From Engraulis encrasicolus (Eukaryota > Chordata > Actinopteri > Clupeiformes > Engraulidae), in NCBI RefSeq assembly GCF_034702125.1, contig NC_085871.1, positions 37,687,159-37,751,158 on the forward strand: a DNA stretch of 64,000 nucleotides, written 5' to 3'. Below the pieces are notes generated by a model that did no database searches, had not been told where the DNA came from, and was given only the letters and a program-made list of their open reading frames with translations. This document shows positions 4,791 to 25,963 of this stretch, piece after piece (positions within the stretch are counted from its first letter, which is position 1; every line of letters starts with the position of its first letter). The position numbers and the translations under genes were made by a program.

Positions 4791-5796
4791 GCAGCAGTTG
4801 TTGTCGGCATAGATGACTCTCGGGGCTGGAGCATTGGCACGTTCGAACGCTGGTGAGGTACTGCATCGCGTCCTGGCCATCCCCTTAGATCTTCTTCAGG
4901 ACAGGTCATAAAACAGACCAAATCAAAACAGACACATTATTACATTACATTACACTACATTACACATTATTACGCAAATGACATTTGTTGTTTCCCTAAA
5001 TAATCGATATAAATGACAGTCACCATAATTTTCAAATCATCAGCCATTGGAGTACAATCAAAAAGTTTTTTAATGAACCTTCCAATGATAACGGTAATTT
5101 TTAAAATAATAAAAAAAACTTTGTTAAAAAACTCTGTTCCAAATTATCACGGAAAACAGTTTTGTAGTGTTGTAATCCAAATTTCTCTCTTCTTTCCCAT
5201 TTACATCAAAACAGCTGGAATTTTGTACCTTCTAAATTACCTTTCAATGTTCAATATTTGGTTATAAGCCCTTTGCCTTAGTAACTGGAATGCTGCGTTT
5301 AACATTGAAGTCAATGGCAGGGTATTGCATGGGAGTTATGGAAGCCCAGATATCCTTGATGCTTTAAGTTTGCTCTCAGCTGTTTTTGTTTGTTTGGTCT
5401 GGTGACCCACACTTCACTCTTCAATATACCTGTAGATTTCCATGCCGCGTTTAGGTGACCCATGATACGATGCGATTTGATTCAATCGTCAAATTATGTC
5501 GCGATATATCGATACATTTCTATTATTATTTAAACCCCTAAAACCTGACTGAAAGGTCTGCTATTTCTCACATCGACAACAGCTGATCTGATAATCTCCA
5601 CTGATGAGTATGGACATTTAAACCATACATTCATAATTCATCATTCATCATAGGTTCATAATTATGTCCTACACTAATGCGCTCTCTTTCCCTGTCAACA
5701 GTCTGTAAATAATATATATGCGATTTTAAAATATTAAGCTTTCAGATGGGGGAAGGGCAGCAGGTCAGCGTATCCTCGGATTCCAGGGCTCCGCGC
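4791..5796. other. unassigned AT-rich sequence
   Basis: About 1 kb with no supported gene. Short ATTACATTAC repeats occur around 4935-4970. Nothing else was recognised. Confidence 0.45.
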
Positions 5797-6262
5797 TGTA
5801 ACACCCACCAACATAATAACTTATCACCAACGTAATAACCCTGCCAACGTAATAAAAAAAAAATGCATTTCAAACGTAATAGCCCGGCCAACATAATAAT
5901 TTCCTGCCAACATAATAATTCTTGCCTCCTGCCAACGTAATACACAGCTTCCTGCCAACGTAATAAGTACTACTTTGGCAGAAAATTATTACGTTGGTGT
6001 GTGACACCCACCAACGTAATAACTTCCCACCAATGTAATAACCCAGCCAATGTAATAAAAAAATGTCCATTTCAGACATAATAGCCTGGCGAACATAATC
6101 ATTTCCTGTCTACATAATAATTCTTGCCTCCTGCCAACATAGACAGCTTTCTGATAACTTAATTTAGTTGGCAGGAAATGATTATGTTGGTGGGAAGTGT
6201 AACACCAACCAACGTAATAACTTCCCACCAACGTAATAACCCAGCCAATGTAATAAAAAAGA
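5797..6262 (+). repeat. left terminal inverted repeat of giant element, tandem CCAACGTAATAA units
   Basis: The array contains roughly twenty degenerate units, mostly in the orientation CCAACGTAATAA. Two short inverted islands (about 5977-5998 and 6163-6192) read TTATTACGTTGG or a variant. It pairs with 24885-25353. Confidence 0.85.
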
Positions 6263-6482
6263 GCATTTCAGACGTAATAGCCCGCCAGCGTAATAATTTC
6301 CTGCTTCTTGAAGGTTCTCAGGCACCCAAAAGCAGCTTACTATGAAAGTGGTCCATTCCTTGTATCACACTTCTGCAGAAAATTAAGGGAGCTTGAATTA
6401 CTTAACGTTTTGATTGTCCTGCAGTAAACATGTTTTTGTTGTTGTTTATAAACTCAGTGTTATGAGGAGGGGCAAGACTGTT

Positions 6483-6612
6483 ACGTGGCGCTATTCCGAC
6501 ATGGCGCTATTCCGACGTTAATGTCTATTGTCGGAATACCGACACGTTTTCCACCGTCCGCCGCTATTCCTACATGCCGCTATTCCTACATGCCGCTATT
6601 CCTACATTTTTT
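6483..6612 (+). repeat. left arm of inner inverted repeat, CGCTATTCCGACA units
   Basis: Several degenerate copies of GCGCTATTCCGACATG and GCCGCTATTCCTACAT, with one inverted copy (TGTCGGAATACCGACA). The complementary arm is at 24148-24232. A 9-bp direct repeat GGGCAAGAC lies just outside both arms, at 6470-6478 and 24239-24247. Confidence 0.75.
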
Positions 6613-6719
6613 TAAGTAGGCCTATATTGAACCATTCTGAGAATGCTGCCACTCTACTGTGTAGCACTGTCATCAGGGCAGCCAACGTTTCCCTCCATAT
6701 CCATATAAGGCTCTTAAAT

Positions 6720-9098
6720 AAGGCAGAAGAGGCTCTAAGAGACTGCTTTCAGTCCACACACTGGAGTGTACTGCAGGAGAGTGAAAACCTGGAGGAAATC
6801 ACTGACTGCACAGCTGACTACCTCAATTTTTGTATGGATGTCGCAGTCCCAACCAAGACTGTGCGCTGCTTCCCCAACAACAAACCCTGGGTGACTAGGA
6901 GGGTGAGAGAACTCCTAAACAGCAAGAAGAGGGCCTTCAAGGAGGGCAACACTGAGGAGTTGAGGAGTACCCAGAGAGAACTGAAGAGAGAGCTGAGGGC
7001 TGCTAAGGAGGCGTATGGGAGGAAAGTGGAGAGGAAGATGGAAAGCAACCCAAGGCAGTTATGGCAGGGCATCAGAGCGATGACCGGTTTTGGCGCCAAG
7101 AGTGGAGGGGCTGAGGGCAACAAAGACAGAGCAGATGAGCTTAATCTGTTTTACAACAGATTTAATTGCCCATCTGTAGACTGCACGGCTAGTGGCACAA
7201 CTCCCACCACGCAGTGCCCCCCTCCCCACTCTCCCACCACTGAAGACATCTCAACACCTTTGGTCTGTGCAGCCCTCACCTCACCCATCCCCCCTCAGCC
7301 CCCAGCACTCACACTGGACCCCCCTCCTCCTCCTCCTACCTCCTCTGAATTCCCCTGTACCTCTCCCATCCCCCCTCTCCCCCCAGCTTTGACACTGGAC
7401 CTCCCTCCTCCTCCTCCCTCCTCTGAATTTCCCTGTACCTCTCCCATCCCCCCTCTCCCCCCAGCTTTGACACTGGACCTCCCTCCTCCTCCTCCCTCCT
7501 CTGAAGTCCCCTGCACCTCTTCCATCCCCCCTCTCCCCTCAGCTTTCACACTGGACTCCCCTCCTCCTTCTCCCACCTCCTCTGAAGTAACCTGCACTGA
7601 CACACCTACACTGATGGAACCTCTCCCCACCCATCCCCCACCACAAACGGAGCAGCCACCCCCCACCATTACGACAGGACAAGTTAGGAGCGCACTGCGG
7701 AGGCTTAAGCCGAAGGCCAACGGACCTGATGGGGTCAGCGCCAGACTCCTCAGGACCTGTGCAGAAGAGCTAGCTGAGCCACTGCAACACATCTTCAATA
7801 AGAGTCTGCATGCGGGTAAGGTGCCCACACAGTGGAAAACCTCATGCCTCATACCTGTACCCAAAAAGCCACACCCCAAAGAACTAAACGACTACAGACC
7901 GGTAGCCCTCACATCCCATATAATGAAGACATTCGAGCGTGCGCTTCTGCTCAACATACTGAAACCCCAAGTTCACCACGCACTAGACCCACTACAATTT
8001 GCCTACCAGGAGAAGGTGGGAGTTGAGGATGCTATTCTGTATCTGCTGCACAGAGTGCATTCTCACCTAGACAAAGGAAGCAGTGCTGTTAGAATCATGT
8101 TCTTTGATTTCTCCAGCGCCTTCAACACAATACAGCCACTACTGTTGAGAAACAAACTACTGCAGATGGGAGTGGAGACTGGGCTGGTGAACTGGATCAC
8201 AGACTACCTCACAGGAAGGCCCCAGTTCGTCAGACTAGGTGACCTCACATCAGAGACTGTAGTCAGCAGCACTGGAGCTCCACAAGGAACGGTGCTTTCC
8301 CCCGTGCTGTTCACCCTGTACACCACTGACTTCAACTACAACACGAAGACCTGCCACATGCAAAAGTTCTCGGATGACACGGCCATTGTTGGATGCATCA
8401 AAGATGGGCAGGAGGGGGAGTACAGGGGACTGGTGGAGAACTTTGTCAAATGGTGCAGAACAAACCAGCTGTGGCTGAACACCACCAAAACCAAAGAAAT
8501 GGTGATTGACTTCAGGCGAACCACCCCACCCCTGGTGCCTGTCTCTATCGAGGGGGAGACTGTGGAGACAGTCTCCACATACAAGTACCTGGGTGTTCAC
8601 CTGGACTCTAAACTGGACTGGTCTGCCAACTCACATGCACTGTACAAGAAAGGCCAGAGCAGACTCTACTTTCTGAGAAAGCTGAGATCTTTCAATGTCT
8701 GCAACAGACTCCTGCAGATGTTCTACCAGTCTGCCATGGCCAGTGTGCTCTCCTATGCTGTGGCATGCTGGGGTGGCAGCATTAGGAAAAGAGATGCTGG
8801 ACGGCTCGACAGGCTGGTGAGGAAAGCAGGGTCTGTTGTAGGCATAGAACTGGACGCCCTCACAACCACAGCCGACAAGAGGACACTTGGCAGATTGGAC
8901 TCTATTTTGGACAACGACAAGCACCCACTGTACCCAGTCCTCAACAACCAGAGAAGCCTGTTCAGCTACAGACTGCGCGCCATCTCCTGCAAGACAGACA
9001 GGCTGCGGAAGTCCTTTGTACCCAGGGCCATTCAGCTTTTCAACATTGCACAGAAGGACACACAAAGAGAGATCATCATAGGGGACTGGACTGCATAA
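6720..9098 (+). CDS. L2-type non-LTR reverse transcriptase, N-truncated
   Basis: The open frame extends upstream to 6528 only through flanking repeat and has no credible ATG there. LINE-like protein begins around KAEEALRDCF (about 6720). Then come the conserved linker NNKPWVTRRVRELLNSKKRA, a proline-rich repeat region (about 7280-7600) and the RT core: KANGPDGVSARLLRTC, NDYRPVALTSHIMKTFER, FFDFSSAFNTI, GAPQGTVLSPVLF and the catalytic box FSDDTAIVG. FSDD replaces the more common FADD, but both aspartates are kept. The C-terminal region has YKYLGVHLDSKLDW and the tail ending IIGDWTA. It is open to the stop at 9098 with no frameshift. With no endonuclease it could not retrotranspose alone. Confidence 0.88.
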   Translation, partial: KAEEALRDCFQSTHWSVLQESENLEEITDCTADYLNFCMDVAVPTKTVRCFPNNKPWVTRRVRELLNSKKRAFKEGNTEELRSTQRELKRELRAAKEAYGRKVERKMESNPRQLWQGIRAMTGFGAKSGGAEGNKDRADELNLFYNRFNCPSVDCTASGTTPTTQCPPPHSPTTEDISTPLVCAALTSPIPPQPPALTLDPPPPPPTSSEFPCTSPIPPLPPALTLDLPPPPPSSEFPCTSPIPPLPPALTLDLPPPPPSSEVPCTSSIPPLPSAFTLDSPPPSPTSSEVTCTDTPTLMEPLPTHPPPQTEQPPPTITTGQVRSALRRLKPKANGPDGVSARLLRTCAEELAEPLQHIFNKSLHAGKVPTQWKTSCLIPVPKKPHPKELNDYRPVALTSHIMKTFERALLLNILKPQVHHALDPLQFAYQEKVGVEDAILYLLHRVHSHLDKGSSAVRIMFFDFSSAFNTIQPLLLRNKLLQMGVETGLVNWITDYLTGRPQFVRLGDLTSETVVSSTGAPQGTVLSPVLFTLYTTDFNYNTKTCHMQKFSDDTAIVGCIKDGQEGEYRGLVENFVKWCRTNQLWLNTTKTKEMVIDFRRTTPPLVPVSIEGETVETVSTYKYLGVHLDSKLDWSANSHALYKKGQSRLYFLRKLRSFNVCNRLLQMFYQSAMASVLSYAVACWGGSIRKRDAGRLDRLVRKAGSVVGIELDALTTTADKRTLGRLDSILDNDKHPLYPVLNNQRSLFSYRLRAISCKTDRLRKSFVPRAIQLFNIAQKDTQREIIIGDWTA
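7284..7595 (+). repeat. in-frame 78-bp minisatellite in LINE linker
   Basis: A 78-bp unit coding for about 26 residues of the type CTSPIPPLPPALTLDLPPPP repeats about four times. The middle copies (7362 and 7440) are nearly identical. It lies between the linker helix region and the RT domain and keeps the frame. Confidence 0.85.
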
Positions 9099-9173
9099 AC
9101 AGATCCCACTCCTGCATACTCTTTTTACCTGGACTCTCTACCCTTCGACTCCTTTTCAGCGGAATGCACAGCT

Positions 9174-9302
<129 letters not shown>

Positions 9303-9368
9303 CTCAGTTTGCGATGTGTGTAACCCCCCTGACTACTGATACTCCTGGACTATGTACACTTTATTTTT

Positions 9369-9369
<1 letters not shown>

Positions 9370-9402
<33 letters not shown>
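9370..9402. repeat. (GT)n microsatellite in LINE 3' UTR
   Basis: Pure GT repeat, preceded by TTTATTTTTGG, the same context as the array at 9590. Confidence 0.95.
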
Positions 9403-9403
<1 letters not shown>

Positions 9404-9589
9404 AGTGACACAGGGGGTGACTTGTGTTTAACCCCCCATCTCTTTTTCTAAGGAATACAATGGACATTGTTCTAGGAAAGAGACTATGGACACTCCTGGA
9501 CACTTTATGGCCACCTTGTCTTGGCTACTATGTGCCACTTAGCTAAGGCACATGTGAACACTGTGGACACTTTACATTTTATATTTTTG

Positions 9590-9615
9590 GTGTGTGTGTG
9601 TGTGTGTGTGTGTTT

Positions 9616-9672
<57 letters not shown>
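9590..9672. repeat. (GT)n-(GA)n compound microsatellite in LINE 3' UTR
   Basis: GT run with two interruptions, then a GA run. Confidence 0.97.
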
Positions 9673-9673
<1 letters not shown>

Positions 9674-9860
9674 TGCCTTGGCAATAAGTATGCAACAGCG
9701 AGCTATATATGATTATTTTATTTTATGTGTAAATATGTGTGTTATGTCTTGTGGACAATGTCTTTATGTCTGTATTTATGTGTGTATGCTACTTGACACC
9801 TTAATTTCCCCCTGGGATCAATAAACGATACTCTACTCTACTCTACTCTACTCTACTCTA

Positions 9861-10557
9861 AATCTAAATGAGCTATCCACGCGGGTGTGGTGCTGAAATC
9901 AGCGATGTAAGACACTTTCCCACGTTACTGCTTTGAAGAGATAAACTTTGTTGCCTACATTCCAAGTTACTCAATCGAATTATATCGCAACAATGTAAGG
10001 CCTACCAAAACATCCAGCGACATGATGGAGCACACAACCCTTGTCCTTATTTTGAAGTTCCAGAGAGAAGAGCCGTTGTCGTGTCCAAACCGAGGCAAAA
10101 CAAAAGCAAACTGTGAGAAATTCCAAAAGGCAAGTCTTACAAATCCAGACAGACATTTAGACTACAATAGGCCTATTAATCTGAAGTCGGGTCCCGCCTC
10201 TAATTCCCCGTTTAGCACATGCCATAGCCTACACTCAATCCATCTCATTGAAATGACTTGTTCATCCACCACCGGTTCCACGGAGAGAACCCAACTCTCA
10301 GCAGCCTTTCAGGGCTGAAGGAAGGTGCAGTGGATTTATTTGTCACAGGGTGACAAATTGAGAACTCACGCACTCACTGATTACATTGATTTCAGGTGCC
10401 AGCGAGAGAAGGGAGGAAGGTGATTGGGCCAATAGGATGGGTGTGGGTTTTTTATGTGCAGGTGCTAAGATGGACGGTGACACACCGGAGAGAGAGCGAG
10501 ACGCACGGCCGCATCGTTGGGAAGTTGGTGGATGAGGACGCTCACCAACGAAGAGTT
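9861..10557. other. unassigned interior sequence of composite element
   Basis: Between the LINE and the next MITE. No gene recognised. A GA-rich stretch lies at 10395-10500. Confidence 0.4.
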
Positions 10558-11160
10558 ACGGCCCGTTCCCACTTTGCCGGCGAGCGCGTTGACGCCGACG
10601 CCTTCAATTCATTTTCAATGGAAAGCGGCGACGCCCTCGCAAAGGCTTCTGGGATACGCGGCGCGGCTACTTTGACAGTTGACGCGCGTCAAAAAAGTTG
10701 AGCGAGCTTCTACTTTATGCTAATTACTCGCGGCCAACGCGGAGCGTTATCCAATGATTGTCGAGTACATGAGGAATTCCCATGAAACCAAGGGCTATGT
10801 TTTGCTGCTTAAAAGTAGTTTTATGACTGGTTATCATACGTTTTAATGCAATACACTACAAGAAACTATGAAGTGCAAGGTCTTTGTGCTTATGTTCAAA
10901 GGATTATGTACATTTTGACGACATTCAAAACTACGTGATGGCTATGAAATGTGTGAAGTAAACACATGTCCACAGTAAGGTAAGGGCAGACTTTGATGTT
11001 ACTATCGCTGGTTAGCTTGCTTAATCGATATAAACGTGTAGAAAGACAGAAAGAGATATTCCTGTTCAGTGTACTCTGTCACGCCCCTGCATTCAGTCAA
11101 AAAAGGGAGGTGCGTCGCGTTTATGAGCGTCAAATGGCCGTCAAAGTGGGAACAGGCCGT
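10558..11160. mobile_element. putative MITE with ACGGCC(C/T)GTTCCCACTTTG termini
   Basis: The left end ACGGCCCGTTCCCACTTTG is matched by the inverted right end CAAAGTGGGAACAGGCCGT. Both ends continue inward with weakly matching, CpG-rich GACGC motifs. Length is 603 bp with no coding capacity. No clear target duplication was found, so the borders are approximate. Confidence 0.5.
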
Positions 11161-11869
11161 CAAGTGCCCACACCTGGCCGCCATAGCCTTCACTAGAAGC
11201 AAGCCCCCTACCCGCGGTGCATGCCGCCTTCAGCTCTCTCTCACCCTCTCGCTCTCTCTCTGGCTCTATCGCTGCAGCTGGCAGAGACGACAGAGGACAG
11301 AGCGTGAATGGACTGGTTGTATTCAAACACACACACATGCACACAGGACTATGTTCTCAAATGGAAAATAAATATTTGAATGAAATGACTTGTGTCTTGG
11401 TGTTTTCTGGTGTGTACAATGTTCCTCGGGGGAGTTGGTAATAAGAGGGGGTGCCGCTTTCAAACGCGCACCTCCCACCTGTGACATATTTTAAATTTAA
11501 ATTTAAATAATTAATATGTTTTTTTAAATAATGAGACTTAAATCCTGAGACTTTCTTATACAAAAAGCACCAACTTGGGCGCGTAACTACAGAACTTTGT
11601 AAATTGAATGGATGACTTTCTGCCACAGTCTGACGTGCATGGGACATAGCCCATATCGGTTCATTTGTGATGCGTGAACAGCCGGTCTAGCCTACCTGTA
11701 AAATGACACCCTCTTCTGCTGTAATATTACTTATTATGTAGGCTATTACGCGCTTGCAATAGAGAGAACTCAATCAGCCTTGTGTTACACATGGTTTTCT
11801 TCTTTTTTTTTACCTTCTAAATGAGGCTCCTGCTTGCACGACTTCCGTGGCAGATACTGATGTGTGCCT
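11161..11869. other. unassigned interior sequence
   Basis: A CT-rich tract lies around 11229-11268. No gene recognised. It ends at the TTAA target of the 11874-18329 transposon. Confidence 0.4.
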
Positions 11870-11873
11870 TTAA

Positions 11874-12305
11874 AGGATTTATCCGGAGTTGGAACAAGTT
11901 TGCCTGATTTTTGCATGTTTGGGATGAAATACAGTCACTCTAGAGCAAAATCAAGGCAAAAGGATGCGTTTTGAGAAAGTTTGATAATATCACGTTAGCC
12001 TCGTTAGCCATATCAGCTATGCAATATGAAAGATGCGGGCATCGTTTTTCGGCGGTTACACACATTTCAAAAACACAACATTTTAAAGTCTTGCACAGCT
12101 CAAAACAACGTCACACTTACCTCGTAATATGTTGAGGGTATCCACACATAAACCAAAGTGTCCAAAGTCCTTCATGTATTCTTGAAAGGTCTGCAGAATG
12201 TGTCTTGTGAACCTACTACCTTGAGAATATCTAAATTACGGTCAAGACAACTATTTGACACTAAAGCCCACCAAGTAGATTGCCGAGTGCGTCGCACCAT
12301 CAGCT
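11874..12305 (+). repeat. left TIR of the ISL2EU-like transposon
   Basis: Starts AGGATTTATCCGG and ends GTCGCACCATCAGCT. It is the inverted match of 17898-18329. Confidence 0.92.
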
Positions 12306-13351
12306 GTGGCAAAGAAAATGGAATCTTGTACAAGAACGACAACTAGCTGGTGTGGCCAGGAGTGGCACTGCAGCTATGTTATCGCAGCCAAGTAAATAAT
12401 GAATGGGTGCCAATGGGGCTGTACGCTTCTCTTAGAACTATCTGCCCGCGTGATTTTTTCCCTGGAAACAATGAAGTCGCGTTCGATAGATATGAGTAAG
12501 TGAAAGCATTTGCCGACACGTTTGCATCTTGTCAAGTGTTAGATTCGTGAAAATGACCCTTATTTCAACTATAGCAATGACATAGCACGTGACAATCGAC
12601 TTTACGGCATACGCCATTTGTTTTGTAGTTTTAAGTCTGACTTCAGATGTCGATGTGTTTAAAGTTATGTTAGGATTGTTGCGGACACCTGTTATTTATT
12701 GCATTTAAGGTGGTGGAAAAGCAGCATGTGTACATGGGGTAAAGGAAATGACTGCGCTCATCCTTAAGAATTTGGGCACCTTCAATTAACATGTTGGACG
12801 GTGGTGGGGGTTGAGGTGTGTGACCGTAGATGTCTCTGCTAGGAGGATCAGTCAGAGTACGTCTCTCGTCAGCTCTGGTCGTGAATAGTCGCAGAGATTC
12901 CTCGGCCAGCAGGTATTAGCCGAATGCTAGCGTGTTGCAGGACAAAACTAACACGTCTTTGGGAGAACAAAGCCATGTCAGGAACCTTTAACTTCACTTC
13001 TAATACAACTTCCATGATAAGGTACAGAATGTGCACACATCGTTACAAACCAGAGAACAGAATCGTCACAAATCCCTGCTGAGCCATTTAGCCCAATAGG
13101 CTCCCATTCATCTTTTACTTGGCTGCGTGCGCCAACGGGGCTATAATGGGAGCCAATGAGAGACGGCTATCTCATAGCTTAGAACATTTCTGGCTGTGGT
13201 TACTCGCTATGGAAATACGCAAGTTTTTGACCCGTTTCCGGTTTACTTCCTTAACTACCCCTGTATATGCCCGCCACTTCCGTTCTAACGAGCTCCGATT
13301 GAAAGTTAGCTTTGATCGTGTTCGACGCAGTGGGGAAAAAAGGTCATTGTC
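12306..13351. other. transposon 5' region before the transposase gene
   Basis: A short inverted pair lies inside: CGCAGCCAAGTAAATAATG (about 12384) against a matching inverted block near 13100 (CATTCATCTTTTACTTGGCTG, read without its last base). It may mark a small nested element or a promoter-proximal hairpin. No coding exon was recognised before 13352. Confidence 0.45.
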
Positions 13352-15246
13352 ATGGAAAATGTCAAGAGGAAAAGTGGTTCGGGAACTACGTGTGCAGTGG
13401 TTGGCTGCACAAACTCAAGGAAACGCCTGAACGAGTGGTTAGGTCGAGAGTGTTTTGACCACAAACCAGCCACAAAGAGGGAATGTCCATGCCCTCCTTT
13501 GTTTACTTTCTTTCGCAAGCCTGATGCCGACGCAGAATCACGGGCCTGGCTGAAGGCATTAAATTTAAAGAATCCACCCCGCAACGTGTTTGTGTGTTCT
13601 CATCACTTTGTGGACAAGAGGCCAACCGAGGGTAATCCGTATCCAGAGCTGTGGTTGGGATACAGTCGCTTAACCCAGCCGAAGAGGAGGCGAGTCACCG
13701 ACCGGACCCCTGCCCCCCCAAAGAAACGTAGACTTCCATCTGATGGTAAGTACAGCAACCTCAGCATGCTAGCTAGCTCCGCTTAGCGCAAATGTTAACA
13801 AATTATGAACTTGTTAACCTTATGAGGGTAAGCAACATATCCGTGTATCAAGTCATCATTGGACTTTCATATTTAAATTGCCCTGTTCATGTTAGGGGAG
13901 AGATGGGAGACCTGGCGACTGAGTGTCTGTTCACTTGCTCATTTGCTGTCAAATCACCTCACCTGAAGTTTGTAGGGCGTAGCATACAGTAACTCTCAGT
14001 AACAGTAACATTTTAATGTGCACGCCTTCTGTATTGTCAAAGTAATTTACAATTTGCCTACAGTGTAATGTTGTAGTACAATTTATGCAGCTGATGTTTT
14101 CAGATAGATGACTACTACTCAACTTAGAGTATAAGCTTATGTTTTTTGCACATATTAATGTCAGCTACTTGTGTTCTCTTCCCCTTTTTAGATGCTCCTG
14201 AAACCTGTCAGCCTGCCTGCGAGACAGAGCCTGCCTGCGAGACCGAGCCTGCCACACCAAAATACAGAGATGCCCAGACCCAGTGGGAGGATCCGTCACT
14301 GACTGACCACACATACTGTTCAACATATCAGTCTGTTAAAGTAGATAAGGCCACGCAGTGCGAGGATCCTACTGTGACTAGCACCACAGTCATTGATGAT
14401 TCCAGGTCTCGGCTGTATACAGGAGTGCGCATGGTTCAATTTTTCACCATGGTGACGGCGTTGTTGCCTTTCAGTAAGCCATCAATTACCCTTCCTGTTG
14501 TAGACCAAATCCTGATGACCTTGATGAAGCTAAAACTAAATTTAATATTAGGAGATATTTCTCACCGTTTCAGTGTGTCTACATCCATGGCGAGCATTGT
14601 GATTAGTCACTGGATTTGTGTGATGGGTGAACAGTTCAAAGTCCTGATCCCCTGGCTTCCAAGAGAGACCATTCGTGCCACCATGCCCTTACCGTTTCAG
14701 AGGAACTATCCCCGAACCACCTGCATCATTGACTGTGCCGAAAGTGCCATGCAGAGAGCAACAAACCAAGATTCGAGGAGTGACACGTTCAGTCAGTATA
14801 AATCACGCAATACTGTTAAATATCTTGTCGCTGTGGCCCCTAATGGGCTAATCATGTTTATATCTGAGTCATATGCTGGCAGAAGCAGCGATAAGTTCAT
14901 CACCATGGACAGTGGTTTCCTTGATTATCTTAGGGCTGGTGATGAGGTCATGGCGGACCGTGGGTTCACCATTCGAGACCTGCTTAGTGAAAGAAAGGTC
15001 AGTTTGAACATCCCTGCATTCACCTACAGGCGTAAGCAGTTGACCAATGAGGAGATAACGCGAACCAGGCGAGTAGCCAATGTCCGTATACATGTGGAAA
15101 GAGCAATCCAGAGACTAAAGGTCTTTAAGATTTTATCCCAGACCGTTCCCATCAGCATGGCATGTAAACTGGACAACATCTTGATCATCTGTGCTGGCCT
15201 AGTTAACCTGAGAAGCCCATTGATCAGAATGCCTAATGAGATTTAG
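13352..15246 (+). CDS. THAP zinc finger / DDE_Tnp_4 transposase, two exons (13352-13745, 14192-15246)
   Basis: Exon 1 encodes a THAP zinc-finger DNA-binding domain: CAVVGCTNSRKR (the C2 pair), then FTFFRKPDADAESRAWLKAL and VCSHHFVDKRP (Cys and His ligands), with a basic tail PKRRRV. A consensus donor TGATG/GTAAGT and a pyrimidine-rich acceptor at 14191 join it in phase to exon 2. The product is about 482 residues. Exon 2 has an acidic repeat ACETEP, a helix-turn-helix-like region DISHRFSVSTSMASIVISHW, and the catalytic triad: D312 in IIDCAES, D387 in VMADRGF and E434 in IHVERAI. Motifs YKSRNTVKYLVAVAPNG and GRSSDK are typical of DDE_Tnp_4 enzymes, which cut and paste the transposon through its TIRs. 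All catalytic residues are present and the frame is open, so the enzyme may be active. The neighbour is convergent. Confidence 0.87.
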
Positions 15247-15661
15247 AATTTTGCCTTGTATCCCTGTGCACAATATTGTAATTTGTTAATATTGTAAATG
15301 ATTTTTATAGTGATGTTATTGTGTGGTCTTGTTTTGTACTTCACTTTTTAATGTAAGAATTAAATACATGGTATTTCTTGTTGAAGCCATTCGTTTCATT
15401 TTCTCAAAACATTTAATTAATCTTGTTATTAATGTCCAGGATGAGTGTACTATGAATGAATTGTGTTAGAAGAAATTGTAAGCTTAACACTCTAAAGAAG
15501 ATGGGGGAACACATGATTGTAGTTTCATAATGATTTGAAATTTAATCAACATTTATTTTCAAGTCTGTACAACAAACATATATCACATTCATTAATATAT
15601 TACATTTTCTAAACACCAGACATCTGCTGGCAGGCACCCTTATGCATCTACATAAGGCAGC
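15247..15661. other. convergent 3' region of the two transposon genes
   Basis: AT-rich spacer holding both 3' UTRs. An ATTAAATAC-type poly(A) signal candidate lies at about 15359 for the plus gene. Confidence 0.5.
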
Positions 15662-17753
15662 TTATTTTGGTTTTACAATGCTGAGATACCTACTGCAGAA
15701 CTGTAACCTTCCCTCAACAAAATCATCAACAATTTTTGGGAGCATGTGGGAAAAGTAGAATGTGCGCAACCTTGGGATATGCTCCTCAACAAAGTCTTGG
15801 TCATAGGGTACTTCTATTTCTAGGTGCTCCGTTTTGTTCCAGATGACCAACTTGGCGTGCTGAAGCCCTGTGCAGTACATCCCAAGCTGAACCTGCATGT
15901 AGTAGCCCTTTTGACCGTTAGAGGCAATAAGGTATTCTACCCTATCGCCGTTTGCCACAGTTGTGATTTCACAGCCCTTTGTTGCCAAAAATTCATCCAT
16001 TGACTTGTTTCCCATCACTGGTGTTTTGATCTCTAAAAGAGTGTCTTTGTTAATCACTCCATCGGGTGATGCTGCAAGCCACGGCTCCATTTTACACACC
16101 ACTAACCCTTTACACTCAATGCGGTTGCCCAGAGTTTCCAAATGGTCCCTTGCCACTTCCTCCCCCTCTGCTCCTTGGCGAGTTGCGGCATTGCCACGGA
16201 AGGATGGATGTAAGTGCTCTGACAAAAACTTCTCAGGCGCTGTGGTTAAGCGAATGGGCACCTTTTTTGCTGTGCTTGCTGTAATGCGCACTCTCCTTGC
16301 ATCATGCCAAACCTGTTCTTTGCTCTGTTGTTTGGTAGCCCTCTCAATCTCCTCAAACTTGGGTGTGGGCATATCAATGTATTTATTGTAAAAAGTTCTG
16401 CATTTTTCACAAGCCAGTGGTGTGTGGTGCTCATCATGGCTTAGGAGATGGAGGTGTGGGCATGGTGTTGGATCAGTGATGTTGGTGGTGTCGGCATTAA
16501 GGCAGAGCTGAAGGAGGCTATCCCCAGGGCAATTGAAAAGTGCTGCCATTGGTGAGGCAAGTGCGTTCTTCCTCCACTCTTCATGACTTCTAAAGAGTCT
16601 CACCTCCTGTGCTGGTTCTGGAGAGGAAGAGGATGGCTGTGCAGTTGATTGCAGCTGGTAGAGGTCTGTCCTCTTATGTCTCTTGAAGCTCACATACTTC
16701 ATCTTCCTCTGTCCAGCATTTCTTTTAGACCCAGCATTCCACTGGTTCTGTCCGTCTGTGCAGGCGAGCCCGGTTTTGCCCTGTCTCACAGCATTTTCTA
16801 CCTAGAGAAAGATATTTAAAAACAGGGCATTAGTATTGTAATGAGTTAAGAAATGTGTTATTCGTGTTGCCACCTGTCCACATTTTTTACTGATTGTCCA
16901 GAATTTTAATGACCTATCCTGGGGAGAAAAAAAAAACCTTTCCTGGACAATGAATGAAGGATAGCTTACAATTGCGTACAAGCAAAGCGGTCAATTGAGT
17001 TTGAAATGTCCAGGATTTTTTTCAGACAGAGGTGGCAACCCTATGTGTTATTATGATCATCCTCTCTCACACACGCGCACAATTTTTCCAGGAAAAAAAA
17101 AACTTTCCTGGACAATGAATTCAGGATAGCTTACCATTGTGTACAAGCAAAGAGGTCGACTGAGTTTGAAATGTCCAAGATTTTTTTTTTCAGACAGAGG
17201 TGGTAAGTTGTAACCCTATGTGTTATCATGATCATCCTCTATCACACACGTACACTAACCAAGTCAATATGATGTAGTTCAACTAATTAAAGTCATAAAA
17301 AGATATATAAGCCTAGAGACAGTACAATGGTCAAATAGTTACCTTCCACAGGATCGCAGCTGCATGGGAACAAGATCTTCCAGGTCCAGCGACACACGTA
17401 CATCCAGCTGTTTTGATGTCTCCCGCTTCTGTGGTTAGCACCCAAGCATTGTGCCAGGCGCTATTCAAGCACTGACTTGGTTCAACATCGGCTTTCAAAT
17501 AAACAAAACGTTCGTGCTTGTAAGACATTATGCGACCAACTTTCTGACTGTGCAAATACTGATATGCCTCGGAGGCTTTTAAGTTGTCCATGGCTTTTCC
17601 ATCCGTTGCTAGGGAGTCCACGAAATAAGCACAAATATTTCCATACGTTACGTTCGGCCATGTTGTCATACTATCCTCCCAGTTCTGCACATAATCCGGG
17701 TGGGGGATAGTAACGCCATCTCCTGTTAAAGTATTTAAACTGTGTTCCCACAT
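15662..17753 (-). CDS. SWIM zinc finger plus YqaJ-type nuclease protein, two exons (17753-17343, 16801-15662)
   Basis: Exon 1 starts at ATG 17753 and ends with a SWIM-like zinc finger, CTCVAGPGRSCSHAAAILW (CxC...CxH). Donor AAG/GTAACT and acceptor CTCTAG join exon 2 in phase 0, giving about 516 residues. Exon 2 carries a YqaJ/lambda-exonuclease-like core of the PD-(D/E)xK type: a helix with ARRVRITASTA, ASPDGVINKDTLLEIKTPVM (catalytic D and ExK) and KGYYMQVQLGMY (QxQ). Before it lies a short Cys/His cluster, CPHLHLLSHDEHHTPLACEKC. YqaJ proteins are nucleases of phage-type recombination systems. In eukaryotic transposons their role is unknown, and processing of excision products or DNA intermediates is an inference. 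The plus-strand frames are shadows. The gene converges on the transposase gene with about 415 bp between stops. Confidence 0.85.
16862..17262. repeat. intronic MITE-like repeat with about 175-bp partial tandem duplication
   Basis: Within the SWIM-YqaJ intron. The left edge GTTGCCACCTGTCC and the sequence GACAGAGGTGGCAACCCT are inverted partners. A block beginning CTTTCCTGGACAATGAAT and ending TATGTGTTAT occurs twice (about 16939 and 17102), so the inner part was duplicated. Confidence 0.65.
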
Positions 17754-17897
17754 TATTAGCGTGCGGTCTAAGTGTGGGCTGTCAAGGTTTGTTTACATTG
17801 GAAAACGCTGTGCAGCCCTTTTCCGGCGGAAGTTCCATGCATTTAGAAGAGTAATGGCGCCACCCAGTGTTTGTGACGTAAACTTGTCTATAATCAT

Positions 17898-18329
17898 AGC
17901 TGATGGTGCGACGCACTCGGCAATCTACTTGGTGGGCTTTAGTGTCAAATAGTTGTCTTGACCGTAATTTAGATATTCTCAAGGTAGTAGGTTCACAAAA
18001 CACATTCTGCAGACCTTTCAAGAATACATGAAGGACTTTGGACACTTTGGTTTATGTGTGGATACCCTCAACATATTACGAGGTAAGTGTGACGTTGTTT
18101 TGAGCTGTGCAAGACTTTAAAATGTTGTGTTTTTGAAATGTGTGTAACCGCCGAAAAACGATGCCCGCATCTTTCATATTGCATAGCTGATATGGCTAAC
18201 GAGGCTAACGTGATATTATCAAACTTTCTCAAAACGCATCCTTTTGCCTTGATTTTGCTCTAGAGTGACTGTATTTCATCCCAAACATGCAAAAATCAGG
18301 CAAACTTGTTCCAACTCCGGATAAATCCT
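17898..18329 (-). repeat. right TIR of the ISL2EU-like transposon
   Basis: Inverted match of 11874-12305. Confidence 0.92.
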
Positions 18330-18333
18330 TTAA

Positions 18334-18710
18334 GCCGCATAATTTAGTCTGCCATGTGACCATTAGGCACCAATTGGCAATATTAGGCACATCTATAAAA
18401 GATTGGCACAGCCCCCTCGTAGGGAAGCGGCAGATTGATTGTGTGCTCGTGGCAAGTGTGCCTTTGTTGTGTTTGGTGTCGCTGAGTCGAATCCGTGTAG
18501 GGCCCTTCGCGGGAGAGGTATTCCGTGGAGTTGAGGCCTATTACGGCGGTGCGACTGTGTGGAGCGACCAACTTGGTGGCCGCGCCGGCTCCCGTATTTG
18601 GGTATGTAGCCGTCGCCTGTCCTATCGCATAGCTAGATTTTTATTGCACAGGTGCTCAGGCACCGATGCGTTTCGAATCGCGCACAACTCTTTTTTCTTT
18701 TTCTTTTTAA
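18334..18710. other. GC-rich unassigned interior sequence
   Basis: This contains ATTAGGCACCAATTGGC and ATTAGGCACATC near 18361-18390, then a CpG-rich stretch to about 18640. It could be a promoter-proximal part of the outer element, but no gene was recognised. Confidence 0.35.
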
Positions 18711-19215
18711 AGTGTCAAGGTGTTTTCAAGTTATAGTCTAGAAGCATTTCCAGAAAAAGGCCCTTTATAAGGGTGTTAGAAGCATTTTTTAGTAAAAGTT
18801 GGGAACCTAGTTTTCTAAGACAATTAGAGTACCCTGAATTCAGCTAGCCTGGTTCCCAAGCTGAATTTTGAGTTTTTGACCATGAAATGGGCAAAAAACA
18901 AAATGGCCGCCGAAATTCTTGATTTTGGGCAGAATATGTAGAAAGTACCACTTCTCCATGGAAATAAATGTGCAATGCTCACATATTTGCATTTATCATG
19001 TATTCCTACACTTACACAAAGGCAAATTGTCATGGCAAAAAGATAAAAAAAATACTATAATTATGCCGTTCTAATAATAAGATATTCTCGTAAACTGGCA
19101 TTCAATAGCAATAGCCTCCATGAAGCACATTATCATACAAAATTGTCATTCAATAAGATTTGGAAGGAAAAAGAGAGGCAAAGAAGATAGTATTATCTAA
19201 AAGACTAAATATTGG

Positions 19216-19486
19216 GACATGAATATGTCCCCTGTTCTTTGAAGGAGATGAGTGAGCCATCTCTATGGGAGCGCACTCTCAGCTGTACGATTAGCTGAAG
19301 ACCTTTGCAATCACGCCAAAGGTCCAATCAACTGTGTGGGCAGGATGTCCACTTTGTCAAAACCGAATGGTTGCGCGCAACTAAGCCACGTTGATGCCAA
19401 ACATCTCTTCGGCTGTCGTCAATAAGGTTGTCTTGAGAGATGGCTCACTCATCTCCTTCAGAGAACGGAGACATATTCATGTCCTA
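19216..19486. repeat. inverted repeat, about 50-bp arms
   Basis: GGGACATGAATATGTC with GGAGATGAGTGAGCCATCTC at 19216-19264 is mirrored at 19434-19486. It adjoins the DIRS recombinase 3' end and may be part of the DIRS terminal structure or a separate small element. Confidence 0.6.
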
Positions 19487-19576
19487 ATGCTCTCTTTCAG
19501 TCGAATCGTTCGCATATGCTGGTCCAAACTAGGCAGAACTCCAAGAGCATCCTGTAAGGATAGCGTTCCTATCACC

Positions 19577-20527
19577 CTACAGACAATCAGTGGTCCTGCC
19601 CAGAACCCTATGTTCCTGTGGCAACTTGGTCACATCTAGCCGGTAGAACAGGACAAAGGTGGCGGGGTTGGCCCAACCAACCGCTCTGCACACCTCTGAA
19701 ACTGCTGCACCCTTGAAGAGAGGACAAGATGTAGAGACCTGCACTAGTAAAGTGAGCCCTAATCTGAGCCGGGGGTTGGCGACCCTTGGACTCATATGCC
19801 AGGGCAATGGTTTGAACCAACCATTTGGAGACCTCTATTTCAAAACTGTGAGCCCTGTAGAGGGCTTGATGAAGCACACAAACAGCTGCTCAGTGTTCCT
19901 AAAAGAGTGAGTCCTGTTCATGTAGATGTGTAAAGCGTGCACAGGGCACAAGTTGTGTTGTCACCTCTCTTCCACGGATCTGAAAGGTGGTGTGCAAAAG
20001 CAATTTGGAGAGAACCCTCTTGGAGGGGCTCGAAAGGGGCCCCACATATAGCCTCCAGTACTAGAGAGATATCCCAGGAGGGTATCGTCTGATGTAGCAC
20101 GGGGCGTAAGTATCTAGTGGATGGGCACTCAGAGTGTTGGAACCGAATCCTACATGGCACGATGAAATCGCTGCAAAGTAGACTTAAATGGTAAAGTCTC
20201 CCCCGAATAAGTCTTGTAGGAAGGACAACACCATCGGTACTGAACACTTTCGCGTTGGTCACACTAGCGTTGGAAGACAGACCACTTCAGGTTATACAGT
20301 GTCAAAGTAGATTGGGCCCTGGCCCTTTTAATTGTCCTGATAACGTTATCCAGAAAAGCGGTTAGGTTCAAATGTTCCCTTGCCAGACCCATAGGGGCAG
20401 GTGGCCCCTGGGCTGGAGTATGTCCTCCTCCTGGTCCGTTGCCAGACTCCAACCTGCAGGAGAGGGGAAAGTAGCAGGAGGGGCTCTCAGCCGAGGCCCC
20501 TGAGCCCCGTGGGCTAAGGGGGGACAA
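19577..20527 (-). pseudogene. DIRS-like tyrosine recombinase, frameshifted
   Basis: Minus-strand frames in order: TIKRARAQSTLTLYNLKWSV (N-terminal core, about 20330-20270), IPSWDISLVLEAICGAPFEP (about 20085-20020), VSKWLVQTIALAYESKG with the AHFTSAG box (about 19820-19750), and AVGWANPATFVLFYRLDV with the Tyr box (about 19690-19620). This order matches DIRS-type tyrosine recombinases, which integrate circular retrotransposon DNA. At least two frameshifts occur, and the HxxR box reads HFTS, losing the catalytic Arg, so it is dead. No reverse transcriptase was seen beside it, so the element is partial. Confidence 0.75.
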
Positions 20528-20603
20528 ACCCTGAGAAATCTCGCTTCCTTGCAGGAGGGGAAAAAGGGAGGCGTCAGGCGAAGGCGCTCGTGGTGCATTA
20601 TGC

Positions 20604-20855
20604 TAGCCTGATAAACCAGACTAAATGTGGATGTCTAATTTAGTCTGGCCTCGATGCATAATACATCCGAAGATTGTTGATGAGAACAACCTTCCCTCAA
20701 AACCCTGCCCGCTTTGATTCAAAACACACCTTTGCGTTGTAAATGGTTTGCCAGATTCATGGCATTCTGGCTTCATTGAATCATTATGCGAGGCCAGACC
20801 CACCCGTAGACAAAACATTTTGCCGTCCAGTGGGTGGCGCTGGTTCACCAGGCTA
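20604..20855. mobile_element. 252-bp MITE inside the DIRS remnant
   Basis: The termini TAGCCTG...CAGGCTA are inverted. The flanks are a perfect 9-bp direct repeat GCATTATGC (20595-20603 and 20856-20864). Depending on how the border is drawn, the duplication is 8 or 9 bp, as for hAT elements. It interrupts the DIRS sequence and is therefore younger. Confidence 0.82.
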
Positions 20856-21477
20856 GCATTATGCAGGACTTTTGGAGCGCGCCATGCCTGGTGACAGGGT
20901 GCGCTTTCGTGCCAAGCGCAGTGGCCTGCCGTGATGCCCAAGGGGCTCCAAGGCAGCTGCTCGAGCTGGGGAAGCCACATCAGCTACTAGGGTGGTGGTC
21001 AGTACTGTATGAGATTCTCTGTGGTGGCAGGGAGTTGGGATAAAGAGTCGTCCACCTTAGGCGGGAGATCGAAGCACTTTGCCAGGGGGGAGTCAGAGTC
21101 TGACTCCACTGAAATTCTTTGCCAGCAGTCGACCGTAGTCAAGAGAACAAAGGGACAGAGCAGGCTAGTACTTTTCAAGCTCTCGTAACTCGTGTCCTTC
21201 AGGGTACTCGTGACCTCAGTCAGGAGACGTGAGTCCAAGGAACCGGGTACGCACAAATGTTTGTAAAGAACTTTTACTCCGTATTGTTTCTAATCTGCCG
21301 TGAGTAGATTCCGTCATTGTGAAGTTTCTTGCTGCCATGGGGAGGACACTGTACATTTCATATGTTTGATCTGCAATGTGTGATCTCAGGTTAAAAGAGA
21401 GTGTCCACCTACACAAAGCTGAGGCTGTCTCAGTGATCACAATTATGCTCTTTTATTGCCTGTGACATTTACCCACT

Positions 21478-23034
21478 TCATAGCCTGATCAGAATCTGGC
21501 TAAACTTGTGAGCCAATCTCTTGACCACAAAGTGGCCTTTTTGGAATTCAGACAAAATGGTTCTGGAAGCTGACTCATCAAGTAGATACACTGGGCCCCA
21601 TTGTGCATAGTTAAGATGGCCATACCGCTTAAAGTAGGGTAACATTAGGCTGAAAGAGTGAAAATTCAGATCCCAGGTAGCTTCACGTTGTTCTCTTGTG
21701 TATTGCAGCAGAACAGTAACCATATCCATATACTGCCACCAGTTCACATCATCAGATTGACTCTCAGCAATATCATGCAGAAGATTTCTGTCCTTTTCCT
21801 GATACTGGAATGAAATCAGTTCACTAATTGTCTGAGGATCATCACCATTAGCCATCCTAGCAAGGCAGGTAGAGAAGACTTGGCATGAGAAGACCCTAAA
21901 GGGATTGCAGAGCAAACTTGTGTGCCATGGCTTTGTTGGATGCCTTTCCTGCCAGAACAAGTTCAACAGGGCCTTATCCAAGCAATCCACCATCCATACA
22001 TTGGTCAGTCCAGATCCATTCATATGTTCTCCTATGGCCTTAAGGAAGTTGATTGACAAGTTAAGTCCTCCTAGGCGAGGTATTCATCTGTTGTTCTATT
22101 CTGAAATTGCCCACTTTAACTCTTTAAGTCTGCAGTACAATGCTTGGTCAACTGTGATAACTGTTCCTGTCCAAAATGTTAAGATATGACAATGCATTTG
22201 TATTCAAAGTATCAAAACGTGTGCAGTAGCGAGGACTATTGGCAAATAATTGTTCCTTTGATGACAGTGACTGATTGAACACTGACCAAGAAATCTTCAT
22301 GTCTAAGTTTTGACAGTGCAAGAAGAAAGCTAGATCCGTAGCCTTTGCTTGTCTAGCATACCTATGCTCCTCTCCAGATTTTCCAAAGCATGTTTAAGCA
22401 ATGGGTGCTGAAAAAGTTGGCTTGAATGTCCTATGAGTAATCCAGAGAGGATGTAGCTCCATCAGGGCATTTGGCACATTTAATGTATGTCTAGTAGACA
22501 CCTCTATATATTTAACACAATCATCAATTGGTTGGCCTCTCTGCCATGCTGCCATTTGTGTTGCATGGAAAGTATTCTTCCCATCAAGTGTTTCATCCAG
22601 GATATCAATGTTATCACATGTGTAGTGGATGAATTTATCTGCCACAATGTTTGTTGGAATAATGGCACCACTCTCTTGGTTCAGTGTTTTAGAGTGCTCT
22701 CAGCTAAGGAGGATCTGGACTTGGAGGACCTGGTCGTAACTCAGACAATGACCTGCCTGATTGAATAGTCATATTAGATATTTTACCCAATAGCTTGATG
22801 AAGAGTACAAGCAAGACTTACATGTTTCGGAGTCCATTTTTTGCCATCACTGACACAATAAACAAGGACTTTAGCCTCATTCAGAACTCTTCTTTGAGGA
22901 AGTTTTTCCTTGCCACCAATTCCATCATCTTCAAGAGATGTCTGGCCACTAACAACCAGGCTGAGTAGCATGTATAGACTATCTGGAATGTATGCAATAG
23001 TATCTGATAGAATATGTAAAATATGTCTGAACAT
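21478..23034 (-). pseudogene. decayed gene of the 18711-23618 element (unknown transposon protein family)
   Basis: Three minus-strand blocks appear in order. The first (23034-22783) has IPDSLYMLLSLVVSG, VLVYCVSDGKKWTPKHVSLA and CTLHQ. The second (22645-22394) has YTCDNIDILDETLDGKNTFH. The third (22059-21478) has HSFSLMLPYFKRYGHLNYAQ, WGPVYL and EFQKGHFVVKR. From recall, text like this occurs in repetitive, poorly characterised proteins in many metazoan genomes. Function is not known to me. Gaps and frame changes between blocks, and no full-length frame, indicate decay. It lies inside the inverted-repeat element and is presumably its own gene. Confidence 0.6.
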
Positions 23035-23618
23035 TTTTCAAAATGTACGTTATATGTAATATCATCATGGTGTCATCTAACGATTTCTGGACAGTTTTCA
23101 GAGAGCCAATAGCAACTTTCAGTGTTTTTTTGGAAACACTAAATACTTTGAATTATGCAAAGTATTTCTAAAATACTTACATCAATTTTCTTAACCATAT
23201 AAACACACATAGGCTACAAATATCTTATTAGAAAAGCTAAATATTTAAAACGTTTAGGCTAACACCTAGCCTACAATATTAGCATTATTAGCATTCTAGA
23301 AGCTATTTTATACTTTTTAAAATCCTCTATAGTAGATACATTCATCAAGAAACATTAATGGGACACAAAATGTTAGAAAAGAGCATTTATTTCCAAGTAC
23401 AGCAATACTTGGTAAAAATGCTCTGTCAAAAATAGCGTATTTTGGCAGCCATTTTGTTTTTCAAATTTAACTGTCAAAACCTCAAAATCCAGCTTGGGAA
23501 CCAGTCTAGTTGAATTCAGCACACTTAAATTATGTTAAGTACATAGGTTCCCAACTTTTACTAAAAAATGCTTCTAACACTCACAAATATGAAAAATGTG
23601 TCTAGACTATTGGACACT

Positions 23619-24147
23619 GCAAGTCGAAGCGAGTTGGTGTGTGGAAAAAAAGTAAATAGCAGTGTTGCCTCGGGACCCTCCGTTATGCCATTGTTTTTTT
23701 TGCCATATTACATTAGACATAATAAGTAACCTAAAAGTCAAGTTCTGTGTGCATCATACCAGAGCTCTAGGTCGGCAACGTTGTTGCTTTAACAGTTTGC
23801 CTGCAGGATATCGGACCAGCGCAGCAGGGGAAAATAGGCTTCAGTTTGGTGTTTTTATTTCCTCATAATAAGTCTTAAGTGGTCGACATAGTCCATATTA
23901 AATAGGCTACATTAAATAGACTACATTAATAGACAGTCGTGTGTGCTTTTGCCAATTTCAATGGCACACCGCTCACATGCCATGTGAAAACCCGCTCAAA
24001 TTATATTTTAAAAATAAATTGCTGCGTGCCAGTAAGCCCTCTCCAGCGCAATCGCCTTGTTGGTGTCGAGACTCATGCATATTCCCTGCTGCAATATAAA
24101 AAATAGTCTGTGTGAATGTCATCATGAAGCAATGATGCGTGGGGATA
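23619..24147. other. unassigned interior sequence
   Basis: No gene recognised between the older element and the inner inverted arm. Confidence 0.4.
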
Positions 24148-24232
24148 AAAAGTGTCGGAATAGCGGCAGTCGGAATAGCGACATGTCGGGACAGCGGATT
24201 GTCGGAATAGCGCTATGTCGGAATAGCGGTTG
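24148..24232 (-). repeat. right arm of inner inverted repeat, TGTCGGAATAGCG units
   Basis: Four to five degenerate units of GTCGGAATAGCGGC, the reverse complement of the 6483-6612 arm. GGGCAAGAC follows at 24239-24247. Confidence 0.75.
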
Positions 24233-24247
24233 CCCCCCGGGCAAGAC

Positions 24248-24884
24248 ACTGGCAGTCAACCACGTGAGCTAATTTTTTGACAGACAGTGGTTTCCTACAA
24301 TCAGAGGTTGAGTTGTGCGCAGCCAGGGTTGCGCAGCCTCTCTAGGTCGTCCTCAGACGAGCCTTCCATCATTGCTTCCAGTCATCCCGATTCTCCATAC
24401 ATCTTTTCAGTTTGCTGGTACTCAGGGCTCTGGCGTCCTTCTTGAGTATTGAGAACCCATGTATAGTGACAAAAAGCTGGAAATTGCAGAAGGTCAAGTG
24501 CATTAGAATAGGCAAGCTTTTCAAGTCCTGACCAAGTGTATGAGAATAGGCCAGCTATTTAGGTCCTGACCAGCATACAGACACATTACAAGATATTTAT
24601 GATAATAAGTATAACATGATAATAATAATATAATGTTGCATTGTGTGCATTTTTAGTCAGTTTAGCAAACAGGGGAAGGGGGTACATGACATATAGGGTA
24701 TTTTTCCTGCCCTTGAAAGAAATGGGTAAAATTTTGTAAGGAATTTATACAAAACTAAACAAACCCTTTAAGTTTAATGGCATTAAGGTTGCACTTTCAT
24801 GTAGACTTTGTCGCCATCACTATTTCTTTATATTATTGTTCAAAACTGTGTGTATAGTAGGGCTATTTTCATTACTTTTCATTA
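24248..24884. other. unassigned sequence between the two right arms
   Basis: About 640 bp, with a block GTTGCGCAGCCTCTC...CATCCCGATTCTCC at 24327-24396 that looks like a repeat fragment, and AT-rich sequence after it. No gene recognised. Confidence 0.35.
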
Positions 24885-25353
24885 CTTTGGCAGGGTTATT
24901 ACGTGTTATTACGTTGGTTGGTGTTACACTTCCCACCAACGTAATAATTTCCTGCCAACGTAATTAAGTTGGCAGAAGGCTTTCTATAATGTTGGCAGGA
25001 GGCAAGAATTATTATGTTAGCAGGAAATGATTATGTTCGCCAGGCTATTATGTCTGAAATGCATTTTTTTATTACATTGGCTGGGTTATTACATTGGTGG
25101 GAAGTTATTACGTTGGTGGGTGTCATACTTCCCACCAACGTAATAATTTCCTGCCAGCGTAATTCTTATTACGTTGGCAGGAAGCTGTGTATTACGTTGG
25201 CAGGAGGCAAGAATTATTACGTTGGCAGGAAGTTATTACATTGGCCGGGCTATTACGTTTGAAATGCACACTTTTTTATTATGTTGGCAGGGTTATTACG
25301 TTGGTGGGAAGTTATTACGTTGGTGGGAAGTTATTACGTTGGTGGGTGTTACA
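24885..25353 (-). repeat. right terminal inverted repeat of giant element
   Basis: Degenerate TTATTACGTTGG(T/C) units ending GGTGGGTGTTACA at 25353. Inverted partner of 5797-6262. Confidence 0.85.
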
Positions 25354-25375
25354 GGGCGCATTAAATGGGTTTAAA

Positions 25376-25729
25376 GGTGCACTGTGTAGGATGGTGGGCG
25401 GCCATAGTAGGTATTGCAACTATGATGCTCATTGAAACTAAACTGCCTAATGCCAGATTTGATCTTTTCATGAACATTTACTAAATCATGAACTAATATT
25501 TACTAGTATCACCAAAGTACAGCAAGCTTTGCAGCTAGTTTTCTATTTCTGGAAATTCAAAATGGCGGACCATGGACAAGATCCCCCTTTTCATGTATGA
25601 AAAGTGCAAATTTCCCGGTCAAAATATATACTTAGAATTTGATTGTGGTGTTTGTGTAAAAGGTACTATTTGTGCACGGGCAGCCGGAATTCTGGAAATA
25701 AACTACAAAAAAAATTTATACAGTGCACC
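25376..25729 (-). mobile_element. GGTGCAC-ended MITE, copy 1
   Basis: The termini GGTGCACTGTGTA and ...CAGTGCACC are inverted. The flanks are a perfect TTAAA direct repeat (25371-25375 and 25730-25734). Internal landmarks such as CCATCCTACACAGTGCACC, CTTTTCATACATGAAAAG and GGCGGACCATGG are shared, in the opposite orientation, with the copies at 30966 and 59954. Confidence 0.85.
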
Positions 25730-25963
25730 TTAAAAGTGATACCGTCCTATTTTAGAAAATAAAAACACTTATTTTACACCTCTCCTTGAGTTAAATGATT
25801 GAGCTTTACCTTTCCCCTGTACCTTCAACCTTTCTCCGAAAAGTAAAACCCAATCATTTAATTCAAGGAGAGGTGTAGAATAAGCTTATGAAAACTGGGA
25901 GTCTGCATATTAAAGAGAATCGCTTGCTGACCCATCCACTCATTTCCATTGACAACAGTAGGG

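Follow-up and report, generated by a model that had tools for sequence, protein, structure and literature searches.

The question raised by the locus analysed here is whether a 19.6-kb stretch of Engraulis encrasicolus DNA, enclosed by long inverted arms, is a single giant mobile element or owes its size to something else. The stretch lies at positions 5797 to 25353 of a window of 64,000 nucleotides (assembly GCF_034702125.1, contig NC_085871.1, positions 37,687,159 to 37,751,158); the window is the whole stretch of DNA that was analysed, and its coordinates are used throughout. A preliminary description, made from the letters alone, had reported repeat-built arms of about 470 bp bounding one unit to which no gene inside clearly belonged, and had suggested a non-autonomous giant element, an undescribed superfamily or the remains of an inverted duplication. 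With a probability of about 93%, we consider that the apparent giant is the product of nesting in a DNA transposon about 1.79 kb long, which is apparently non-autonomous, has foldback-like ends and belongs to a dispersed family. Our confidence that nesting is the explanation of the 19.6 kb is high.

The arms of the enclosing element, hereafter the shell or layer 1, were analysed by a self-comparison of window positions 4001-28000, in which 24876-25327 matched 6259-5804 in inverted orientation with 89.0% identity over 464 columns. Position, orientation and repeat structure agree with the preliminary description, and the size had to be corrected, to nearer 480-510 bp (5797 to about 6305 and about 24876 to 25353). 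The termini of the shell are TGTAACACCC and its complement, and the ends read TGTAACACCC...GGGTGTTACA, that is, TG..CA. Each arm consists of two-plus copies of a partly palindromic unit of about 200 bp, which is in turn made of CCAACGTAATAA-type sub-units. Allowing at most two mismatches, CCAACGTAATAA was found at 37 sites in the window on both strands together, of which the arms contain 36. When the whole window was shuffled base by base five times, 1-4 matches were obtained on one strand. An exact pattern search with two units placed side by side returned no match, the real units being separated by a spacer. The sub-units of the arms pair in order, L1 with R1 and L2 with R2, as the earlier remark on the order of unit variants had implied, and since units 1 and 2 of one arm resemble units 1 and 2 of the other, the two arms match as genuine inverted ends should.

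The assembly (1,433,290,184 bases in 1,880 contigs), whose chromosome-sized contigs and kinds of transposon would be in keeping with a teleost fish, was searched for further arms, with 40 candidates scored per query, and the match counts are lower bounds. The left arm gave at least 85 matches (40 of 144 candidates scored), several per locus and often as a plus match followed by a minus match, and the 100-base terminus gave at least 69 (40 of 165 scored). The genome search for paired arms that had been proposed at the outset has thus yielded inverted pairs on many contigs. The proposed alignment of flanks was performed on 17 copies with both ends recognised, whose outermost ends were picked by hand and which measure between 230 bp and 20.4 kb from end to end; two of the first 18 copies (C1b and C24b) and 14 of the 15 later loci were dropped, one end or none having been recognised in them. 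Perfect 6-bp direct repeats abut the ends of seven of the 17 copies (GATCCC, CAGCAT, CATAAC, GTGCCT, ACGCAC, GTGTAT and CACCAA), and five of six bases match in one further copy, C2b. As a control, each left flank was compared with the right flanks of the other copies, and none of the 272 mismatched pairs was perfect at 6 bp, with a single one matching at five or more bases. Six bp is the peak, since perfect matches were found once at 2 bp, twice at 5 bp (0/272 in the controls) and in no copy at 3, 4 or 7-10 bp. Inverted ends common to dispersed copies, together with a duplication of fixed length, are two marks of a non-autonomous DNA transposon with terminal inverted repeats, and the arms do bound one mobile unit.

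The size of the shell is accounted for by its sister copies. In L032, L033, L039 and L050, the shell core runs unbroken from window position 6478 to 24239 and the 9-bp sequence GGGCAAGAC is present once; in the window, the same sequence stands on both sides of 6479-24238. Subtraction of this insertion and of one 9-bp copy leaves a shell of 1,788 bp (19,557 - 17,760 - 9). Layer 2, as we call the inserted sequence, is found at this site in none of the nine fetched copies having core on both sides (C16a, C18, C1b, C5, C9, C7, C14, L051 and L057). In four of them, C9, C7, L051 and L057, the sequence passes from about 6426 straight to 24461, so that some 265 bp of core are missing around the site, whereas C14 lacks still more core. 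Copies free of the nested insertions at this site, by which the shell's own gene was to be revealed, were therefore found in the form of four empty sites, but no such gene came to light. The non-autonomous look of the suggested giant element stands, but its giant size does not, the empty site being that of a 17.8-kb insertion in an element of about 1.8 kb.

The ends of layer 2 form a second inverted pair just inside the arms, composed of arrays of 16-bp units (6486-6607 and 24153-24229) and absent from the preliminary description, and they coincide with those of seven fetched copies in an alignment of hand-chosen loci. The left 141 bases of layer 2 gave at least 67 matches in the assembly (40 of 706 candidates scored), and at 25 of the 40 scored places an inverted partner was listed about 20-55 bp away, as in a miniature inverted-repeat transposable element (MITE) that is some 200-280 bp long. 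L076 has a clear repeat of 9 bp, GAAGGTGGA, and some other loci look similar by eye. The layer-2 ends are those of a MITE-like family, very abundant in the assembly, that has units of 16 bp and makes 9-bp duplications. L075 has the same inner left and right edges as the window copy, so that a longer version exists, and the window copy is such a long version.

No transposase of the shell was recognised among the frames of at least 115 amino acids of 22 fetched loci, which were read by eye with low-complexity frames left out, and none was found in L069, in the frames of C10a, C14 and C1b read by eye, or in ten Pfam-scanned frames of C10a and C14. The frames detected in other copies were assigned to a Gypsy-type polyprotein and a DEAD-helicase fragment by Pfam, and to long interspersed nuclear element (LINE), Tc1-like, zinc-finger and immunoglobulin-like sequences by reading of the translations. 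The frames of at least 80 amino acids in the uninterrupted 1,788-bp shell read as translated repeats, by inspection rather than by scan. In agreement with the preliminary description, no gene inside could be assigned to the shell, which looks non-autonomous and, no transposase having been recognised in the examined copies, is presumably mobilised in trans. We propose that layer 1, of about 1.79 kb and with 6-bp duplications, would be moved by a transposase encoded elsewhere, which would bind the repeated units of the arms. The units would presumably serve as binding sites by analogy with Galileo, whose long ends can contain additional transposase-binding sites in their tandem units (according to the available part of PMC3573991). 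Later, a long member of the abundant MITE-like family landed in the shell core, duplicating GGGCAAGAC; the LINE sequence, the ISL2EU transposon and the DUF6589-related element that are now inside layer 2 would have followed.

It is important to mention the results that weigh against this account. The window copy's own 6-bp flanks agree at four of six bases only, nine of the 17 copies match at four or fewer of the six, C5 and C18 fit 5 bp instead of 6, and C14 (13.4 kb) is without a convincing duplication. With 40 candidates scored per query, a shell that carries a gene may have escaped the search. C18 (7.9 kb) has passengers in common with the window, namely a DUF6589-related element and 467 bp that resemble 12310-12773 (inside ISL2EU), and in L053 an ISL2EU-end-like stretch lies beside a shell arm, with sequence that is 76% similar to a layer-2 end farther off. 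Of all the results, these passengers common to C18 and the window favour cargo most strongly. That argument is answered by the DUF6589-related element of C18 (L033 1156-5132), an independent copy which occupies another site and is opposite in orientation to that of the window.

The ends of the shell were compared with those of known systems, for which the cited papers were available in part. TG..CA ends with 6-bp duplications would be in keeping with a transposase of the integrase type (GingerRoot-like), although we hold this assignment with low confidence. GingerRoot elements make 6-bp duplications and have ends that are mostly TA..TA and occasionally TG..CA (in the available text of PMC10045372); the shell agrees in the duplications, but its ends fit only the exceptional GingerRoot ends and no transposase is linked to it, so that it is a candidate member only. 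IS3EU elements usually have 6-bp duplications as well, and their complete families are said in the same text always to end in TA..TA, unlike the shell. That the combination of TG..CA ends, 6-bp duplications and 200-bp palindromic units derives from an undescribed transposase group, whose autonomous member falls outside the 40 candidates that were scored or has died out in the genome, we regard as improbable, and nothing found requires the undescribed superfamily that had been suggested.

Descent from either of two described groups is also improbable. A foldback-type derivative of a P-superfamily element, like Galileo in Drosophila, is suggested by the long inverted ends of tandem units of about 200 bp and by copies that are mostly ends: the available part of PMC3573991 describes tandem units of about 210 bp in the long inverted ends of the Galileo F subfamily, and first-found copies that were only ends. 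The same source gives mostly 7-bp duplications, whereas the shell has its peak at 6 bp and no perfect 7-bp match in 17 copies. A deletion derivative of Maverick/Polinton, which we find equally doubtful, would share with the shell the 6-bp duplications and the long inverted ends (46-1,447 bp in intact vertebrate copies, in the available part of PMC8097293). The end motifs given there are (AG)3 or (AGT)2, whereas the shell ends begin with TGTAACACC; the uninterrupted shell measures about 1.8 kb, and no Maverick-type gene was found in 20 Pfam-scanned frames, which represent a small part of the fetched DNA.

It is very unlikely that the whole 19.6 kb, cargo included, moves as a single giant transposon of the non-autonomous kind. 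The paired and collinear arms, the existence of copies of 13.4 and 20.4 kb (the latter with a perfect 6-bp duplication) and the two stretches shared with C18 would agree with such an element, but the empty site in four copies, the lack of layer 2 in all nine copies with core on both sides and the other site and orientation of the element shared with C18 argue against it. The 20.4-kb copy, C10a, which has the perfect duplication CATAAC, holds a Gypsy-type polyprotein with RVT_1, RNase H and Integrase_H2C2 (Pfam) and a DEAD-helicase fragment just below the Pfam cut-off, and in the interior of C14 (L034/L035) there is a large inverted repeat, whose stretches of 1.3 and 2.0 kb are 95% and 87% alike. 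Together with those of C18, these contents indicate that the size of the large copies comes largely from foreign DNA. Finally, it is hardly credible that the arms arose by a local inverted duplication, as partly palindromic arms might, or reflect an error of assembly, because dispersed inverted pairs with 6-bp duplications mark a transposon family and the two arms differ by 11%.

The layers of the nested shell and their passengers are presented in Table 1.

Table 1. Features of the nested locus in window coordinates.
Feature	Position	Strand	Basis
Left 6-bp shell flank, CCGCGC; degenerate candidate target-site duplication	5791..5796		4/6 bases match right flank
Left arm of layer 1, terminal inverted repeat TGTAACACCC..., two-plus ~200-bp units	5797..6305	+	Inverted, collinear with right arm
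Left part of shell core	6306..6469	+	Joined to window 24239 onward in 4 sister copies
Left copy of layer-2 9-bp duplication, GGGCAAGAC	6470..6478	+	Single copy in L032, L033, L039, L050
Left end of layer 2, (T)GTTACG..., 16-bp CCGCTATTCCGACATG-type units	6479..6607	+	Unit arrays, family alignment
Frame with LINE-type reverse transcriptase (RT)	6522..9098	+	PF00078, E 1.5e-27; opens in layer-2 end, RT domain further in
ISL2EU (Harbinger-like) transposon, 439-bp inverted ends	11870..18333		Domains and self-comparison
THAP frame of ISL2EU	13316-13786	+	Pfam
DDE_Tnp_4 frame of ISL2EU	14128-15246	+	Pfam
YqaJ frame of ISL2EU	15662-16801	-	Pfam
4.9-kb element, ~200-bp inverted ends, broken DUF6589-related gene	18734..23609	-	Self-comparison; copy in C18
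Right end of layer 2, 16-bp units, ...TTGCCCCCC	24147..24238	-	Unit arrays, family alignment
Right copy of layer-2 9-bp duplication, GGGCAAGAC	24239..24247	+	Sister loci and window letters
Right part of shell core	24248..24875	+	Sister-copy alignment
Right arm of layer 1	24876..25353	-	Collinear with left arm, inverted
Right 6-bp shell flank, GGGCGC	25354..25359		Flank comparison

Ten frames, chosen from 52 listed for window positions 5000-26500 and all lying within layer 2, were scanned with Pfam; four gave domains above the cut-off (RVT_1, THAP, DDE_Tnp_4 and YqaJ) and the other six gave nothing. The presence of other transposons inside the shell, already described, is borne out, the ISL2EU element being one of them. 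According to the available part of PMC9179366, animal ISL2EU elements have THAP and DDE transposase domains and a YqaJ exonuclease, and both the THAP/helix-turn-helix DDE transposase and YqaJ are present in the inner element, which is a passenger and not the shell. Its 439-bp arms are 99.5-100% alike, which suggests a recent insertion. The DUF6589-related element, being present inside sister shell C18 as well, was also considered as the shell's own gene and was rejected, its C18 copy being an independent insertion, in opposite orientation and about 60 bp from the layer-2 site. Sequence comparison of the DUF6589-related protein P0038 with solved structures returned only two ribosomal proteins (E 0.07-0.08), which is uninformative; a second structure model of the protein had a mean predicted local distance difference test score (pLDDT) of 70.9 and a predicted template modelling score (pTM) of 0.56, and a literature search on DUF6589 / PF20231 returned nothing relevant.

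Two further observations concern the surroundings of shell copies. A repeat-like stretch right beside the shell in the window (25371-25735) starts near TTTAAAGGTGCACTGTGTAGGAT and ends near GTGCACCTTAAA; similar stretches occur in L031, L045 and C10a, and it looks like another short inverted-repeat element. In L040 and L058 (C2), two shell ends separated by 32 kb have an identical 15-bp left flank, as if the flank and the element end had been duplicated locally.

Matched outer arms alone do not prove a giant mobile element, given that empty-site sister copies cut the 19.6 kb to 1.8 kb. The shell is otherwise ordinary, and its family cleanly exemplifies transposons that have foldback ends, make 6-bp duplications and are apparently non-autonomous; the enzyme of the family is yet to be named.
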